From the NCBI RefSeq assembly GCF_006543045.1, contig NZ_RBZW01000021.1, positions 248,001-312,000 on the forward strand: DNA of 64,000 nucleotides, in the 5' to 3' direction. Below the pieces are notes generated by a model that saw nothing but the letters and a program-made list of their open reading frames with translations, was not told the origin of the DNA and ran no database searches. Both the position numbers and the translations under genes were made by a program. Below are positions 28,516 through 35,287 of the stretch, piece after piece (position 1 is the stretch's first letter; every line of letters begins with the position of its first letter). The stretch is from Salinadaptatus halalkaliphilus (GTDB lineage Archaea > Halobacteriota > Halobacteria > Halobacteriales > Natrialbaceae).

Positions 28516-28595
28516 ATACGGATTGTTGTAGCGTTTTACCGGTGATCACCGACCCGTCCGGGTGATCACCGGTAAAGAACTACAACGGTCCGTAT
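28516..28595. repeat. palindromic repeat element, copy A
   Basis: Two 35-nt arms (28516-28550, 28561-28595) with only five mismatches surround the loop gacccgtccg. Arm ends are atacgg and ccgtat, and each arm contains the self-complementary ggtgatcacc next to ttaccggt. The right end touches the bioN stop codon on the minus strand (tgatacgg in that orientation). Copy B at 60957 is the same sequence inverted, with one extra G in the loop. Confidence 0.9.
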
Positions 28596-29299
28596 CAAAG
28601 CAGTGCCGTCGCAGCCAGAACGATCGCCACGCCGAAAACCGGGAGGTCACGTCGCGACAGCGACAGCGCCGGCAGCGTCGGATTCCACGAGAAACAGCGG
28701 GCCTGCATGGCGAGTGTCAGCCGATCGGCCCGGTCGAACGCCCGCGAGAGCGACAGCGTCGCGATCGTCGTCGTCCGCTCGATAGCGTCCCGTTCGGTGC
28801 CCAGCCGCGCCGCGATGGCCTCTCGAATCGTCCGGAGGTCCGCCCGGAGAACGGGCAGAAACCGGAAAACGAGTGCGACGCCGATGGCGAGCACCTGGCC
28901 GGGCTTGCCGGGTATCGTCCGCTGGATCGCGGCTCGAGACGCTCGAACCGGGGTCGTGCGCACGTAGGCGGCGCTGACGAGCAGGATGAGCAGGACGCGG
29001 TAGCTCGCCTGCGCCGAGGTCACGCCGTCCGAGACGTCGATCCAGGGCGTCCCGAACGTCGCCGCGGCCACGAGCGGTGCGACCGCGAGCAAGACGAGCG
29101 CGAACCGATAGGCGTACAGCGTCCGTAGCGGCGGGACGCGAGCGACCGCGAGGACGAGAGCCGTCACGACGGTGAGCGCGCCCAGTGCCGGTAGCGTGGT
29201 GTGTGCGAGCGCGGTCGCCGCGAAGCCGATCTGGAACGCGAGCTTCGAGCGCGGATCGAGCCGGTGGGCGAGCGTCGTGCCCGGTTCGTAGGTGAGCAT
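28595..29299 (-). CDS. bioN: ECF transporter T component, biotin type
   Basis: An energy-coupling factor transmembrane protein (234 aa; CbiQ/BioN family) with about five helices and the coupling helices for the ATPase in 'SRAAIQRTIPGKPGQVLAIG' and near 'ADLRTIREAIAARLG'. It starts 'MLTYEPGTTLAHRLDPRSKL', the usual T-component beginning. It is the last gene of bioY-bioM-bioN and forms the membrane coupling unit with the upstream ATPase and BioY. Its stop overlaps the edge of repeat element A. Confidence 0.88.
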   Translation of the reverse strand: MLTYEPGTTLAHRLDPRSKLAFQIGFAATALAHTTLPALGALTVVTALVLAVARVPPLRTLYAYRFALVLLAVAPLVAAATFGTPWIDVSDGVTSAQASYRVLLILLVSAAYVRTTPVRASRAAIQRTIPGKPGQVLAIGVALVFRFLPVLRADLRTIREAIAARLGTERDAIERTTTIATLSLSRAFDRADRLTLAMQARCFSWNPTLPALSLSRRDLPVFGVAIVLAATALL

Positions 29300-29314
29300 G
29301 GTCGACGTGACGAG

Positions 29315-30052
29315 TTAGGTGGGTCCTCGAGAGGCCTGCGTGTGCCTCGAGCGGTCGGGGACGCGAACGGCCACGTCCGCGAGGTGCTCGCGTGCATCCT
29401 GTGGGGTGTCGTCGACGACGATTTCGCCATCGCGCATGGCGACGACGCGGTCGGCGAGCCCGAAGACATCCCGGAGGTTGTGGGTCGCCAGGACGACGCC
29501 CGTTCCGTCGGCGGCCAGCGACTCGAGGCGCTCGAGGACCGAGCGACGGGCGGGATCGTCCAGTCCAGTAAAGGGTTCGTCGAGGACGAGGTGTGAGGGA
29601 TCCATCGCGAGCGCGCCGGCGATGGCGATGCGGGCCTGCTCGCCGCCCGAGAGCGTCTCGATGCGCTCGCGTTCGCGGCCGGCCATGTTGACCGCCTCGA
29701 GCGCGTCGGCGACGCGGCGGTCGATTACCTCGCGCTCGAGGCCGAGATTTTCGGGGCCGAACGCGACGTCGGCGCCGATGGTCGCGGCGACGAACTGGTC
29801 TCGTGGGTGTTGAAACACCATCCCGATGCGCGATCGGGCCGCGAGCAGGTCGTCGTCGACGGGCGTCCCGTCCACGAGAACGGTTCCCGAATCGGGGGTG
29901 AGAAGGCCGTTGCAGTGGCGCAACAGGGTCGTCTTCCCGCTGCCGTTGGCCCCCGCCAGCAGGACGAACTCGTCGTCCGCGATCGACAGCGACAGCGACT
30001 CGAGGACCGCGACGTCGTCGAACGCCGTCGAGACGGACCGAAACTCGATCAC
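29315..30052 (-). CDS. bioM: ECF transporter ATP-binding component
   Basis: An ABC ATPase (245 aa). Walker A GANGSGKTT is at about 34-42, the Q-loop is in 'GMVFQHPRDQF', the signature is LSGGEQ near 140 and the Walker B is 'HLVLDEPFTGLD'. The start is GTG at 30052, overlapping the bioY stop as GTGA, which shows tight coupling. The gene lies 15 bases before bioN. It powers biotin uptake by the BioMNY complex; one ATPase gene means a homodimer. Confidence 0.9.
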   Translation of the reverse strand: MIEFRSVSTAFDDVAVLESLSLSIADDEFVLLAGANGSGKTTLLRHCNGLLTPDSGTVLVDGTPVDDDLLAARSRIGMVFQHPRDQFVAATIGADVAFGPENLGLEREVIDRRVADALEAVNMAGRERERIETLSGGEQARIAIAGALAMDPSHLVLDEPFTGLDDPARRSVLERLESLAADGTGVVLATHNLRDVFGLADRVVAMRDGEIVVDDTPQDAREHLADVAVRVPDRSRHTQASRGPT

Positions 30053-30636
30053 GACTGGAGCGGACGAATCCGACCGCTCTTGACGATGGCGATCGCCGCC
30101 GCGATCTTGAGGAGTTCACCGGGGACAAAGGGCGCCGCGAAGGTGAGCGTCGCCTCCCAGAGCTCGAGCTCGAGCAGCCAGGCCGCGTAGCCGGTTCCCA
30201 TCGCGTAGATGACGAGCGTCGCCCCGAGGAGAACGCTAACGAGCAGGGGTATCGGCGTCTCGGCTGGGTCCCGCAGCTCCGTGCCCCGATGGACGAGCAG
30301 CCCGACCAGTCCGGCAGCGATCGGATACGACCAGAGATAGCCCGCCGTCGTGCCGACGAGGACGCCGATACCGCCGGTCATCCCGGAAAACACCGGGAGC
30401 CCGATCGCGCCGGCGGCGAGATACAACAGGATCGAGATCGGCCCCCACACTGGCCCTAACAGGAGGCCGGCGAGGAAGACGAAAAGCACCTGCAAGGTGA
30501 TCGGGGCCGGCGAGAGCGGAATCGGTATCGAAATCGGTGCGACAGCACCAAGTAGCGTTGCGAGCAACGCGGCGCGAGCGATTTGGCCGACGACGGCGTC
30601 GTCGACGAGTTCGGCGGACGATCGTTCGGTTTCCAT
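30049..30636 (-). CDS. bioY: biotin transporter substrate-binding component BioY
   Basis: An S component (195 aa from ATG 30636, METERSSAELVDDAVVGQIA); upstream in-frame sequence lacks membrane character. It has six hydrophobic segments, with BioY features 'ISIPIPLSPAPITLQVLFVF', 'LAGLLLGPVWGPISILLYLA' and 'GLPVFSGMTGGIGVLVGTTA'. It captures biotin in the membrane and docks with BioM/BioN. This is the first gene of the operon; BirA, encoded at 23212, is the likely user and possible regulator. Confidence 0.92.
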   Translation of the reverse strand: METERSSAELVDDAVVGQIARAALLATLLGAVAPISIPIPLSPAPITLQVLFVFLAGLLLGPVWGPISILLYLAAGAIGLPVFSGMTGGIGVLVGTTAGYLWSYPIAAGLVGLLVHRGTELRDPAETPIPLLVSVLLGATLVIYAMGTGYAAWLLELELWEATLTFAAPFVPGELLKIAAAIAIVKSGRIRPLQS

Positions 30637-31038
30637 ACCCACCTTCGTTCGTAAACCGGGATCAAAACTTCGGTTTCCGAGATGGTCGAGCCGACGCTCG
30701 AGGACCGTTCGAAAGGCGTCGTTCCTGTCAACGCTGATCGAACTCGCGGACGAATCCAGGGTGAAATCGGGACGCACTCGAGGGCAGGCCTGGCGCTCTC
30801 TCGAGCCGTCCCGTCGGTGCCCCATCGGGGGTAATGGTGGATTGTATCCGTTTTGCAACCGAAACGACCGGCGTGTTTATCCAGTCGTTCGCGCTGGTGA
30901 GGGAGAACGTATGTCAGCGCGAGCAGCGACGTGGTGGGAGCGAGTTGTACAGTCAGCGACGAGCGAACGGCGAGTGACGATGCGGCGACGCCCGTCGGCC
31001 TGGGGTTCGCCAACGGCGGTGCTCGAGCGGGGCCGCCG
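30637..31038. other. 402-bp region between bioY and the repeat surface protein
   Basis: Divergent promoter region. It contains a TATA-like tttat at 30876-30880 on the plus strand and a 43-codon ORF at 30911-31042 whose stop overlaps the surface protein start. No palindromic element of the A/B family and no other gene are visible. Confidence 0.5.
30876..30880 (+). promoter_or_regulatory. TATA box upstream of small ORF and surface protein
   Basis: gtgtttatcc is positioned 31-35 bases before ATG 30911 and about 160 bases before the surface protein ATG 31039. The spacing predicts a transcript starting a few bases before the small ORF. Confidence 0.4.
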
Positions 31039-31042
31039 ATGA
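30911..31042 (+). CDS. possible 43-aa leader ORF overlapping the surface protein start
   Basis: The ORF reads MSARAATWWERVVQSATSER and ends ...LERGRR before TGA at 31040-31042, so its stop and the ATG at 31039 form ATGA. It is Arg-rich and basic, unlike most proteins here, and has no recognisable domain. The TATA box at 30876 fits its start better than that of the downstream gene. It may be a translated upstream ORF that couples translation of the surface protein, or the overlap may be accidental. Confidence 0.3.
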   Translation: MSARAATWWERVVQSATSERRVTMRRRPSAWGSPTAVLERGRR

Positions 31043-34000
31043 ATCGTGAACTCGTCGTCGTACTCGCCCTCGTCATGGCGACCAGTGCAGTCGCGCTCCC
31101 GATGCTCGGTGGGGGGATCGCCGCGGCGACCACTGACGCTGAGCCGGACGGCCAGTCGTCGATCGACAGTGGGTCCGCCCTCGAGTCGGCCGACACGACG
31201 ATCGCGGCTTCGGCTGTCGACACAATCCAGGCGGTCGACGGTACACAGGACGATGCGGATGCCGTCGAAGCGGGCGTCGACGACGGCATCGATCTGTTAC
31301 AGTCCCAGGGTATCGAGGTGAGTCAGGCACAGCGAACCGCCGCCCTCGAGACCGCCGAGGCGGCTGCGGCCCAGCACCAGGAGGCGTCGGCCGAACAAGT
31401 GCAGGCGGCGACCGCCGGTGCAGTGGCCGGCACGCTCGTTCAGGAACAGCGCATCGAGGTCGACCAGGTCCAGGTCGCCGTCGGCGGCGCGACCGAGGGC
31501 GCACTCGCCCAGCACCAGCAGGCCAACGCGACCCAGTTGCAGGCGGCCGCCTGGGGTGGCACCCACGGGGCCGTAGCCCAGTCCCAGCGCGTCGACCTCG
31601 AACAACTACAGGTCGCAGCCTACGGTGCCACGGCGGGCGCCGCGAGCGAGGCCGGCGAGCGCGAGATCGGCCACGTGCCGACGATTCAGGAGGCTACACA
31701 GGGTGGGGCCTACGGCGTCCTCGAGCAGTACCAGACGCTCACGGCCGAACAGCGCCAGCAGGTCACGCTCGAGCACGTCCAGTTCGCCGCCACCGGAGCG
31801 TCGGCGGGCGCCCTCGAGGGGACGACCGAGGCGGCCCTCGAGACCGAGCAGGACGTTGCCGTCGAGCAGTACCAGCACGCCGATATCAAGCAAGTACAGA
31901 AGGCCGCCGCGGGTGCGGCAGCGGGCGCGATCGACCAGCGCCAGACGGTGACGGTCGAGCAGACCCAGGCCGCCGCTCGCGGTGCTGGTTCAGGGCCGCT
32001 GAAGACGGTCCAGGCGACTGACCTCGAACAGATTCAGCGCATCTCGATTACGCAGATCCAGGCGGCATCCTTCGGCGCGGCGAAGGGATCGATCGAGCAA
32101 CACCAGGCGGCGACCGTCGAGCAGATCCAGGCCGCCGCCGACGGGGCCGCCCACGGCGCGCTCGTTCAGGAGCAGACGGTCTCGGTGACCCAGATCCAGC
32201 ACGCGGCGACCGGCGCCGCGACGGGTGCACTCGAGACGGCGGTCCAGGAACAGATCGTCGACGTCGAACAGATCCAGGCCGCCGCCAGCGGTGCGAGCGA
32301 GGGCGCGGTGATCCAGCGACAGGTCGTCGATGTCTCGCAGGTCCAGTCGCTGGCCAGTGGTGGCGGTAGCGGTGCGCTCGTCCAGCATCAGGAAGCCACC
32401 GTCGAGCAGATTCAAAGTGCTGCGAAGGGGGCGTCCCAGGAGACCGCGCGGGCGGTCCAGTACCAGCGCATTAGCGTCACGCAGCTCCAGACGCTCACCC
32501 AGGAGACGGCCGCCGACGCGACCGCGTACGCGGTGAGCGAGGGGTTTGACGACGAGACACAACTCGTCCAGTTCATCGAGATCGACGTCGTTCAGAAGCT
32601 CGAGACGATCGACGAACTCGAGGGGACAGCCTCGATTTCGATCGTCGACCAGGAGTCCGACGGCGAGACCGTGATCGTCGGTTCGGTCGAGCTCTCGGCG
32701 GGTGGCTTCGTGGCCATCTACGACGGGGTCGCGGCCGACGTCGACCCCGACGACGTGACCGGCGTCTCGGACTATCTCGAAGCAGGCGAGTACGACGACC
32801 TCGAGATCACACTCGAGGACGCACTCGAGGAGAGCCAGCCCGTTGTCGCCGTGGTCCACCACGATACGACCGAGGACCAGACGTTCCAGTACGTCGAGAG
32901 CGGCGGCGTCGAGGACGAGCCCTACGTCACCGACGGCGGCGGGCCGGTGCTCGACGGGGCGTTCGTCACGATCGAGGACGAACCCGACGAGCCGACCGCG
33001 ACGCTGACCGTCACCGATCAGGCGGGCGACGGCGAGTCGCTCGTCGTCGACGACGCCAGCGCGCCAGTCGACTACGGACTCATCGTCAGTGACGAGGATG
33101 GTGCCCAACTGGGCGAGAGCATTCCGTTCAACGCGACCGAGACCGTCGAGAACGAGTCGATCGGCCTCGACCCCGCACTCGAGGACGACGCGACGCTCGA
33201 GGTGGCAGTCGTCGACGCGGCCGACGAGGATCCGATCGAGAGTGAGACGATCGAGTACACGCTCGAGGACAAGCCGCCCGCCTTCGAGGCCGAGTTCCCG
33301 ACCTGCCAGCGCGGGGAGATCACGGGCTCGTTCGAGGACGGCGATTCCGTCATCGTCGCCACCGGCTTCTACGAGGCAAGTGGCTTCGGCAACACGCTCG
33401 GCGAGTACGGCATCACCGTCGGCGACGATGTCGAGGCGCCGCTCGAGGGGACGATCGTCTTCGAGGTCGGCGAGGAGTTCGCCGTCACCGAGACCGACGA
33501 GGGTGGGTTCATCGAGGTGCCGCCGGGCGAGTTCGGCGCGGCGATCACCGGCATCGCCTCGCCCGACGCGATTCCGGGTTCGATCGATCACCCGAATCCC
33601 GATGCAAGCGACTGCCTCGAGGACGTTCGACCCGGGCTCCCGACCCTCGAGGTCGTCGACGCGACGCCGGCCGACGACACAGCCTCTGACGACATCGATA
33701 CAGAGCCGTCTCCGGACGGGGAGACGATCGACGTCACCTTCGGCTACACGAATCCCAACGAGAGCCCGCTCCCGCTTGGCAGCGAGTTCGTCGAGGGCAC
33801 GACCGAGGACGAACCGATCGCGGAACTCGAGCCCGAAGAGGGCGAGTTCACCGTCGAGTGGATCCCCGAGAGCGACGAGGAGCAACTCGTCTGGGGGGTC
33901 GATATGACTCGATACGACTACGACGAGGACGCCGTCGAACCCGCAGCCACGCCACCGGCTGGCGAGATCCTGCCCGACGAGCCAGCCGAGCCCGCGATCT

Positions 34001-34806
34001 TCGACGCCGCGATCACGAACGTGACCGACCCGGTCACGCAGGGTGAGCCGATCGACGTCGACGCCGAGATCGAGAACGTCGGGGGCGAGTCGGACACGCA
34101 AGCCATCGAGCTCGCGATCGCCGACGAGGTCCGCGACTCGACCGAGGTCACCCTCGAGCCCAACGCCACGGACATCGTCTCACTGAGTGCGAGCATTGAC
34201 GATCTCGAGCCCGGCGACTACCCGCTGACGGTCTCGAGTGCGAACGAGACGGTCGAGACGACGGTGACGATCGAGCCGGTCGACGAGGCTGGCGAGTTCG
34301 TTCTCACCGACCTCTCCGGTCCGCCGACCGGCATCGCCGGCGAGGACGTGACCCTCGTCGCGACGATTACGAACGAGGGCGAGGCCGCGGCGAGCCAGAC
34401 GGTGACGTACACGGTCGACGACGAGGTGGTTGTCGAGGAGACGGTCGAGCTCGAGCCCGGCCTGTGGACGACCGAGACCTTCAGCGCGGAACTGCCGCCC
34501 GGCGAATCGAGCCACACGATCGCGACCGACGACGACGAGGCCTCGCTAACGATTACGGCCCAGGACGTGCCGGGAACGGACGACATCTTCGAGGAGGGGC
34601 CGACCGAGGACGGGCCCGAAACGGAACCTGAGGAGGAACCAACCGAGGATGCACCGGCCGAGGACGATACCGAGGAGACACCAACCGAGGACGATACCGA
34701 GGAGACGCCCGAGAACGAGTCGGGTGACGACGCTCCCGACGCCGCCGACGGTGACGAGGTCGGAACGGACACCGAAAACGGGCCAGCCACGGCGGCCGAC
34801 AGCTGA
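31039..34806 (+). CDS. large secreted protein with 23-residue Gln-rich repeats, DUF7282-like and CARDB domains
   Basis: 1255 aa from ATG 31039 (MNRELVVVLALVMATSAVAL). The signal peptide occupies about residues 1-32. Residues about 92-500 hold sixteen imperfect repeats, about 23 residues each, with the pattern VEQIQAAAxGAxxGALVQxQ, rich in Gln and Ala. They are followed by two DUF7282-like beta domains ('GGFVAIYDG' near 530-650 and 'ATLTVTDQAGDGESLVVDDA' near 660-750), further beta-rich regions, and two CARDB-like domains ('IDVDAEIENVGGESDTQAI' and 'VTLVATITNEGEAAASQTV') at about 980-1175. A Glu/Thr/Asp/Pro-rich tail closes it. No C-terminal helix or PGF anchor is visible, so it may be released or held by other contacts. 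It is probably a cell-surface or matrix protein. Confidence 0.85.
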   Translation: MNRELVVVLALVMATSAVALPMLGGGIAAATTDAEPDGQSSIDSGSALESADTTIAASAVDTIQAVDGTQDDADAVEAGVDDGIDLLQSQGIEVSQAQRTAALETAEAAAAQHQEASAEQVQAATAGAVAGTLVQEQRIEVDQVQVAVGGATEGALAQHQQANATQLQAAAWGGTHGAVAQSQRVDLEQLQVAAYGATAGAASEAGEREIGHVPTIQEATQGGAYGVLEQYQTLTAEQRQQVTLEHVQFAATGASAGALEGTTEAALETEQDVAVEQYQHADIKQVQKAAAGAAAGAIDQRQTVTVEQTQAAARGAGSGPLKTVQATDLEQIQRISITQIQAASFGAAKGSIEQHQAATVEQIQAAADGAAHGALVQEQTVSVTQIQHAATGAATGALETAVQEQIVDVEQIQAAASGASEGAVIQRQVVDVSQVQSLASGGGSGALVQHQEATVEQIQSAAKGASQETARAVQYQRISVTQLQTLTQETAADATAYAVSEGFDDETQLVQFIEIDVVQKLETIDELEGTASISIVDQESDGETVIVGSVELSAGGFVAIYDGVAADVDPDDVTGVSDYLEAGEYDDLEITLEDALEESQPVVAVVHHDTTEDQTFQYVESGGVEDEPYVTDGGGPVLDGAFVTIEDEPDEPTATLTVTDQAGDGESLVVDDASAPVDYGLIVSDEDGAQLGESIPFNATETVENESIGLDPALEDDATLEVAVVDAADEDPIESETIEYTLEDKPPAFEAEFPTCQRGEITGSFEDGDSVIVATGFYEASGFGNTLGEYGITVGDDVEAPLEGTIVFEVGEEFAVTETDEGGFIEVPPGEFGAAITGIASPDAIPGSIDHPNPDASDCLEDVRPGLPTLEVVDATPADDTASDDIDTEPSPDGETIDVTFGYTNPNESPLPLGSEFVEGTTEDEPIAELEPEEGEFTVEWIPESDEEQLVWGVDMTRYDYDEDAVEPAATPPAGEILPDEPAEPAIFDAAITNVTDPVTQGEPIDVDAEIENVGGESDTQAIELAIADEVRDSTEVTLEPNATDIVSLSASIDDLEPGDYPLTVSSANETVETTVTIEPVDEAGEFVLTDLSGPPTGIAGEDVTLVATITNEGEAAASQTVTYTVDDEVVVEETVELEPGLWTTETFSAELPPGESSHTIATDDDEASLTITAQDVPGTDDIFEEGPTEDGPETEPEEEPTEDAPAEDDTEETPTEDDTEETPENESGDDAPDAADGDEVGTDTENGPATAADS

Positions 34807-34864: not shown

Positions 34865-35155
34865 TTAGTGCTGGTGGCCGGTTGCTTCGCCGAACGTGAC
34901 GCCGAAGCGTTCCTCGAACAGCTCCATGACGCGTTCTTCCTGGGCTTCGAGTTCCTCGTCGCCGCCCTCTCCGTGGTGGACGAGGTGGTGAGCGCGGCTG
35001 GCGAACGACAGCAAGACGACGTCGCCGACCGTCTCGGCCGTCGATTGGTCGCCCTCGGCGACGAGATCGACGAGTCCTGCGGGGACCGTGATCTCGTCGG
35101 CGGTCTCGTCGTCGGCCTCGATCGAAAGCGTCGTCGTGTCTACGGAATCGGACAT
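34865..35155 (-). CDS. conserved haloarchaeal hypothetical, His-rich end
   Basis: 96 aa from ATG 35155 (MSDSVDTTTLSIEADDETAD). An acidic beta-rich N-terminal half is followed by 'GDVVLLSFASRAHHLVHHGE', a Glu-rich helix and the end 'FGVTFGEATGHQH'. The HH-x-x-HH cluster (AHHLVHHG) and C-terminal HQH could bind metal, but no known family function is recognised. It is convergent with the surface protein gene. Longer upstream readings are unlikely. Confidence 0.7.
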   Translation of the reverse strand: MSDSVDTTTLSIEADDETADEITVPAGLVDLVAEGDQSTAETVGDVVLLSFASRAHHLVHHGEGGDEELEAQEERVMELFEERFGVTFGEATGHQH

Positions 35156-35287
35156 ACCCTGACGGTCGGGCAGCGTCCGTAAAGATGCTGTGGCTTGCAT
35201 CGAACCGCCGTCCTGTCCATCTGGGACGAAACGACTCGATCGCCCGCCCCAGCCACGCGATTTCGCCACACCGTTCCCGTTCGTCGG

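Follow-up and report, generated by a model that had tools for sequence, protein, structure and literature searches.

In a 64,000-nucleotide stretch of the genome of the haloarchaeon Salinadaptatus halalkaliphilus (contig NZ_RBZW01000021.1, positions 248,001 to 312,000; hereafter the window), we analysed a gene encoding a protein of 1255 residues with an N-terminal array of 23-residue repeats (hereafter the repeat protein). Sequence comparison establishes the repeat, the fixed length of the array, the order of the domains that follow it, an N-terminal export signal and a short leader open reading frame (ORF) upstream of the gene; a helical fold is predicted with confidence, though only in the first half of the array. 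We take the repeat protein to represent an uncharacterised, conserved, exported helical-repeat family, and we infer its function: the explanation that we favour, at about even confidence, is an exported, surface-retained helical scaffold that would carry a DUF7282 and a CARDB domain and whose dose would be set in part by the coupled leader mini-ORF.

Under this explanation, the N-terminal 440 residues would form an alpha-solenoid with one 16-residue helix per 23-residue repeat (V-E-Q-I-Q-x-A-A-x-G-A-A-x-G-A-L), each helix being followed by a 7-residue extended linker (x-Q-x-Q-x-V-x). The invariant Gly and Ala residues (GxxxG) could allow close packing of adjacent helices, and paired Gln residues, in the linker and where each helix begins, could form a repeated ladder of side-chain hydrogen bonds that would stiffen the stack. 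Such a rod or platform of fixed length would keep DUF7282, CARDB and the acidic tail at a distance from the membrane, at which the protein would be retained, and would probably contribute to envelope structure or surface contacts; its dose would be partly set by the leader mini-ORF, which may be coupled to the main start codon via an ATGA overlap. A more specific version, possible but held more tentatively, is a new class of solenoid in which each 23-residue turn consists of one helix and an extended, Gln-alternating return, with the helices parallel and Gln ladders lining one edge, the whole forming a fixed-length exported rod whose expression would be gated by a leader ORF of which only the start, the frame and the overlapping stop are conserved. 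What is known of haloarchaeal envelopes concerns mainly the S-layer glycoprotein and pili. If the favoured explanation is correct, a conserved scaffold of this kind would be a new component of the haloarchaeal envelope, most genomes of one haloarchaeal family would carry a single-copy, fixed-length, uncharacterised exported protein, and its repeats would adopt a fold without a close match among solved structures.

The repeat array and its conservation

The gene and the parts of its product are as follows.

31039..34806 (+): repeat protein gene (ORF, 1255 residues)
31039..31116 (+): N-terminal hydrophobic export signal or signal anchor, residues 1-26 (hydrophobicity, ortholog alignment)
31240..31836 (+): predicted cap and first repeats, residues 68-266, with helices of 16-21 residues and short linkers (AlphaFold2)
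31387..32466 (+): 14 scored 23-residue repeats, residues 117-476, consensus TVEQIQxAAxGAAxGALxQxQxV (single-repeat hidden Markov model, register table)
32467..32568 (+): degenerate C-terminal repeats or cap, residues 477-510 (alignment)
32629..32970 (+): DUF7282 domain (Pfam PF23951), residues 531-644 (E = 2e-31)
34312..34527 (+): CARDB domain (Pfam PF07705), residues 1092-1163 (E = 3.7e-8)
34534..34803 (+): low-complexity acidic tail, 41% Asp+Glu, poorly conserved (composition, ortholog comparison)

Along the 1255 residues, the hydrophobic N-terminus is thus followed by a poorly conserved linker, the repeats, DUF7282, a middle region, CARDB and the acidic tail. Identity at a lag of 23 residues was 0.25-0.26 in the repeat region, compared to a maximum of 0.171 in 2000 shuffled sequences at any lag from 5 to 59. 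Using a single-repeat hidden Markov model that was built from the repeats of this protein family itself, we identified 14 copies within residues 117-476 (15-35 bits each), with starts at residues 117, 140, 163, 186, 212, 243, 282, 305, 336, 359, 382, 408, 431 and 454. Worn copies lie before residue 117 and after residue 476 and bring the total to about 16-17, in agreement with the sixteen 23-residue repeats reported in a preliminary description of this DNA. The spacing is 23 residues except for steps of 26 (twice), 31 (twice) and 39 residues (once), the 31- and 39-residue steps consisting of 23 residues plus one or two additional 8-residue QxQ units; the two additional units lie at residues 243-282. 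The unit reads T-V-E-Q-I-Q-x-A-A-x-G-A-A-x-G-A-L-x-Q-x-Q-x-V, and comparison of 13 aligned repeats across 26 orthologs shows that both Gly residues of GxxxG are invariant, that the neighbouring Ala and Gln residues are nearly so, and that positions 6, 9, 13, 17, 19 and 21 are the most variable. The strict alternation of hydrophobic and Gln positions noted in the preliminary description is present in the linker and where the helix begins (L.Q.Q.V.V.Q.Q), but the middle of the unit (AAxGAAxGA) lacks it. Sequence and profile searches of the array against Pfam, NCBIfam and the PDB found no family, so the repeat indeed belongs to none that could be named.

Matches to the repeat protein were found in 104 of the 125 Natrialbaceae genomes, about 98 of them with the whole array and the other six with diverged or partial relatives; the matching relatives include Natronorubrum, Natrialba, Natrinema, Haloterrigena and Natronococcus, and the window's own genus is represented in the comparison by a single genome, that of the window. 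In a class-wide sample, 113 of 391 genomes matched, and the 20 matching genomes in a phylum sample of 393 were all from the window's order. A scan of genome contigs with the single protein as query found nothing, and the same scan with an alignment as query found 43 loci. Searches of viral contigs, phages and plasmids yielded no relatives, and no PHROG matched; a viral or plasmid origin was rejected on these grounds.

Across the window and 66 ortholog loci of the Natrialbaceae, the number of scored units ranged only from 13 to 15. Corresponding repeats were on average 70% identical between species, compared to 43% for different repeats within one protein, indicating that the array is old and has been neither homogenised nor resized. 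The variation in copy number between strains anticipated in the preliminary description is therefore not borne out within the family, and homologs with different repeat numbers (9-21 scored units, with different C-terminal domains) occur in other families of the order. The C-terminal domains of relatives comprise one to three DUF7282 domains, CARDB, a right-handed beta-helix region or TSP3 repeats. Of all parts of the repeat protein, the array is best conserved relative to the window protein (66% identity, compared to 58% for DUF7282, 39% for CARDB and 28% for the tail).

These data bear on the main alternative, namely an adhesin or receptor-type function, with the array as the binding surface on a stalk of C-terminal domains. 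Such a role would suit an exported multidomain protein whose C-terminal domains appear swappable (relatives have TSP3 repeats or a beta-helix region); moreover, aromatic and charged residues that look exposed occur among the variable repeat positions (6, 9, 13, 17, 19 and 21), and each corresponding repeat retains its own identity across species. However, copy number does not vary within the family and the array does not evolve fast there: no other part of the protein is as well conserved, in contrast to what diversifying pressure on a surface would be expected to produce. We consider this alternative rather unlikely.

Predicted fold of the repeats

Two AlphaFold2 models were obtained. Model 1, covering residues 66-648 (583 residues, 41 sequences), had a mean predicted local distance difference test score (pLDDT) of 72, with high values in the first 200 residues, and contained helices through the whole array and strands in DUF7282 only. 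Model 2, covering the cap and the first repeats (residues 68-266, 43 sequences), consisted of helices only and reached a pLDDT of 93.1 (88.9-93.1 among the five models) and a predicted template-modelling score (pTM) of 0.91; its helices at model residues 29-44, 51-66, 74-89 and 97-112 are each 16 residues long, start 22-23 residues apart and are joined by linkers of 6-7 residues. The divergent relative L060 retains AxGAAxGAL and has linkers of other lengths and without Gln, which indicates that the helix is the conserved unit. Helical repeats are thus likely in the first half of the array and probable in the second, as judged from the models. Of the two folds put forward in the preliminary description, the repetitive helical rod is the one that both models favour, with one 16-residue helix per 23 residues in model 2, and the beta-solenoid is not supported, strands being absent from the confidently predicted cap and first repeats.

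Three points weigh against a helical array. The second half of model 1 is poor, with a mean pLDDT of 24-58 in most ten-residue blocks of model residues 261-380; AlphaFold2 tends to turn Ala-rich sequence helical; and the periodicity of conservation in the repeat core does not distinguish a helix (p = 0.20-0.30) from a strand (p = 0.14-0.24).

A search of model 2 against the PDB gave no match that passes E = 0.001. The best match was the designed repeat DHR10, with a TM-score of 0.45 and a root-mean-square deviation (rmsd) of 8.4; the 583-residue model 1 gave only low TM-scores with large rmsd values. As in the alpha-solenoids (HEAT, TPR, TAL-effector and designed helical repeats), short helices are predicted to follow one another in the array, with confidence for residues 68-266, and they may stack into one elongated domain; DHR10 and FD15, both designed helical repeats, were the best fold matches, with TAL effectors among the lower ones. 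In contrast to the repeat protein, where the unit is predicted to be a single helix, 23 residues including its linker, and the signal at lag 46 does not exceed that at lag 23, alpha-solenoids have a helix pair as their unit; the TM-score to any solved chain was at most 0.45, and no profile of a named alpha-solenoid family (HEAT, TPR, PPR, TAL and others) matched in sequence searches of Pfam, NCBIfam and the PDB. Leucine-rich repeats, at 20-29 residues per unit, likewise combine a helix with an extended segment, but they are marked by an LxxLxLxxN strand motif and have a Leu/Asn ladder where the repeat protein has Gln, the models contain no strands in the array, and no leucine-rich repeat was matched in Pfam.

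A second alternative is a curli-like or other beta-solenoid, or a functional amyloid, in which L.Q.Q.V.V.Q.Q would be a strand, Gln ladders would run along the fibre and AAxGAAxG would form a turn. Curlin repeats (CsgA/CsgB) share with the repeat protein a period near 23 residues, regularly placed Gln and export. Conservation in the linkers alternates strictly from one residue to the next with a period of two (p about 0.05), as a strand would, and the paralogs L063 and L064 carry short QSQSVDVSQSQ stretches of the Gln motif alone. Conversely, curlin repeats are built as strand-turn-strand, whereas the repeat protein has a GxxxG core that, with its flanking Ala, suits helix packing; L060 drops the Gln linkers and retains the Ala-Gly core. 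Neither AlphaFold2 model has a strand in the array, and neither curlin nor another solenoid family matched in Pfam at E up to 1. A beta-solenoid or curlin fold was rejected on the last two grounds, and we regard an amyloid reading as improbable.

Promoter and leader ORF

Alignment of the upstream DNA of orthologs and comparison across loci identified two elements in front of the repeat protein gene.

30841..30882 (+): conserved putative promoter region, an upstream element (GATTGTnTC...AACYGAAACGACC) with a TATA-like box at about 30876 (ortholog upstream-DNA alignment)
30911..31042 (+): leader ORF (43 codons); its stop, TGA, and the main ATG overlap in the sequence ATGA (comparison across loci)

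The ATG of the leader (30911) lies 31-35 nucleotides past the TATA-like box (35 when counted from about 30876), as would be expected for a leaderless haloarchaeal transcript. Of 67 loci, 56 have a leader ORF with an overlapping stop; these represent 50 distinct sequences because the two locus sets overlap, and the counts are not independent, the loci being related by descent. The overlap is ATGA, with GTGA or TTGA in a few loci. Among the 50 distinct loci, the leader peptide shows no conservation, and only the start, the frame and the stop are conserved; leader length varies between 17 and 130 codons and takes 32 different values, which implies many insertions and deletions, all of them frame-keeping. 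The G+C content at the three codon positions is flat in the leader (0.62/0.69/0.62) and strongly biased in the main gene (0.75/0.54/0.78). When leaders were shuffled, 26% stayed open given the right frame; multiplied by the one-in-three chance of that frame, fewer than about 9% would be expected by chance. In a control scan of the neighbouring genes of about 44 loci, the arrangement was found in 4 of 943 genes; two of these were focal genes that had escaped the filter, and without them the count is 2 of 941.

Comparison of the 56 of 67 loci with the 2 of 941 neighbouring genes suggests translational coupling, and we infer that it operates by stop-start coupling of the leader ORF to the repeat gene, so that the leader mini-gene probably controls translation of the latter. 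Experiments in Haloferax volcanii have demonstrated stop-start coupling across ATGA overlaps in other gene pairs (PMC6728339). Outside the family, some relatives have a leader ORF and others are themselves leaderless. If the coupling is real, this leader ORF would offer a clean natural case for asking whether leaderless mini-cistrons drive downstream translation by stop-start coupling in haloarchaea.

Domains, export and gene neighbourhood

Both C-terminal domains named in the preliminary description scored above the Pfam gathering cut-offs: DUF7282 with 108.9 bits compared to a cut-off of 27 (with a second matched stretch in the repeat protein), and CARDB with 34 bits compared to 22.7 (two matched stretches in all). 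The repeat protein has both domains, in its C-terminal half, in common with haloarchaeal DUF7282/CARDB surface proteins, but its N-terminal array falls outside those families; a second DUF7282 protein of the window's genome (a frame of 389 residues) gave no match to the array. Our literature search found nothing on DUF7282, on Gln-rich haloarchaeal repeats or on the N. magadii locus tags presumed to lie beside its bioYMN genes.

The repeat domain (window positions 31303-32568) contains 11% Asp+Glu and 16% Gln, and the C-terminal half contains 23-41% Asp+Glu. Five neighbouring cytoplasmic proteins have 16-17% Asp+Glu, compared to the 11% of the repeat domain, a value that is unusual for a haloarchaeal domain exposed to saturated salt. 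This low acidic content suggests that much of the surface of the repeat domain is packed.

The N-terminus consists of a hydrophobic stretch of 20-30 residues that is conserved in orthologs and ends in a conserved ALPxLGGG, at which no lipobox Cys is present; paralogs have apparent twin-Arg signals. The sequence thus points to secretion, as had been proposed, and the remark that no membrane anchor is visible also holds for the C-terminus: a C-terminal membrane segment was absent from the window protein and from the 25 family orthologs examined, which consequently lack this feature of archaeosortase substrates of the PGF-CTERM type. Several relatives from other families have a C-terminal membrane helix followed by basic residues; in NCBIfam, no sorting model matched any of the five distant relatives scanned. 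The simplest reading of these sequences is an exported, membrane- or envelope-associated multidomain protein.

The gene is flanked by the following neighbours.

28595..30672 (-): ecfT-ecfA-bioY, divergent neighbours encoding a biotin transporter of the energy-coupling factor type (Pfam, synteny)
34865..35161 (-): DUF7545 gene, convergent downstream neighbour (Pfam, synteny)

Among 43 named loci, ecfT-ecfA-bioY lies divergently upstream in 40 and DUF7545 convergently downstream in 39. Outside the family, the only conserved neighbours were clusters common to 3-4 loci, resembling locally shared synteny. No bioY was found near the 22 loci from other families, nor near L066 within the family, and bioY was kept in all 19 family genomes searched for it (genomes in which the repeat gene is absent or located elsewhere), most of which lack the repeat gene; the conserved DNA between bioY and the repeat gene, including the promoter element, was not found at bioY in these 19 genomes. 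A pairing that is confined to the family, with bioY kept where the repeat gene is missing, indicates inherited position rather than shared function. A biotin-related surface protein that captures biotin for the neighbouring BioY-EcfA-EcfT transporter, which the divergent pairing in 40 of 43 loci would suggest, is thus very improbable, and a biotin function was rejected because the synteny fails outside the family.

Several relatives depart from the architecture of the repeat protein. L069:7296-9992 (-) retains the N-terminal cap and the C-terminal architecture and has no scored repeat. The paralogs L062:8561-10228 (+) and L070:9077-10702 (+), apparently exported through the twin-arginine translocation pathway, have seven scored repeats, then a strongly hydrophobic stretch (about residues 344-394) and a tail rich in Asn, Gly and Asp. 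Two short paralogs, L063:9097-10140 (-) and L064:9187-10212 (-), have an apparent twin-Arg signal, two scored 23-residue repeats and a Lys-rich linker, and their C-terminus is a run of QSQSVDVSQSQ motifs, that is, the Gln unit alone. The paralog L061:7678-10821 (-) has very regular 26-residue repeats (QHQEVTVEQLQYAAAGTAQGAVSAVYQ) that are more alike among themselves than those of the main family and may have been recently amplified.

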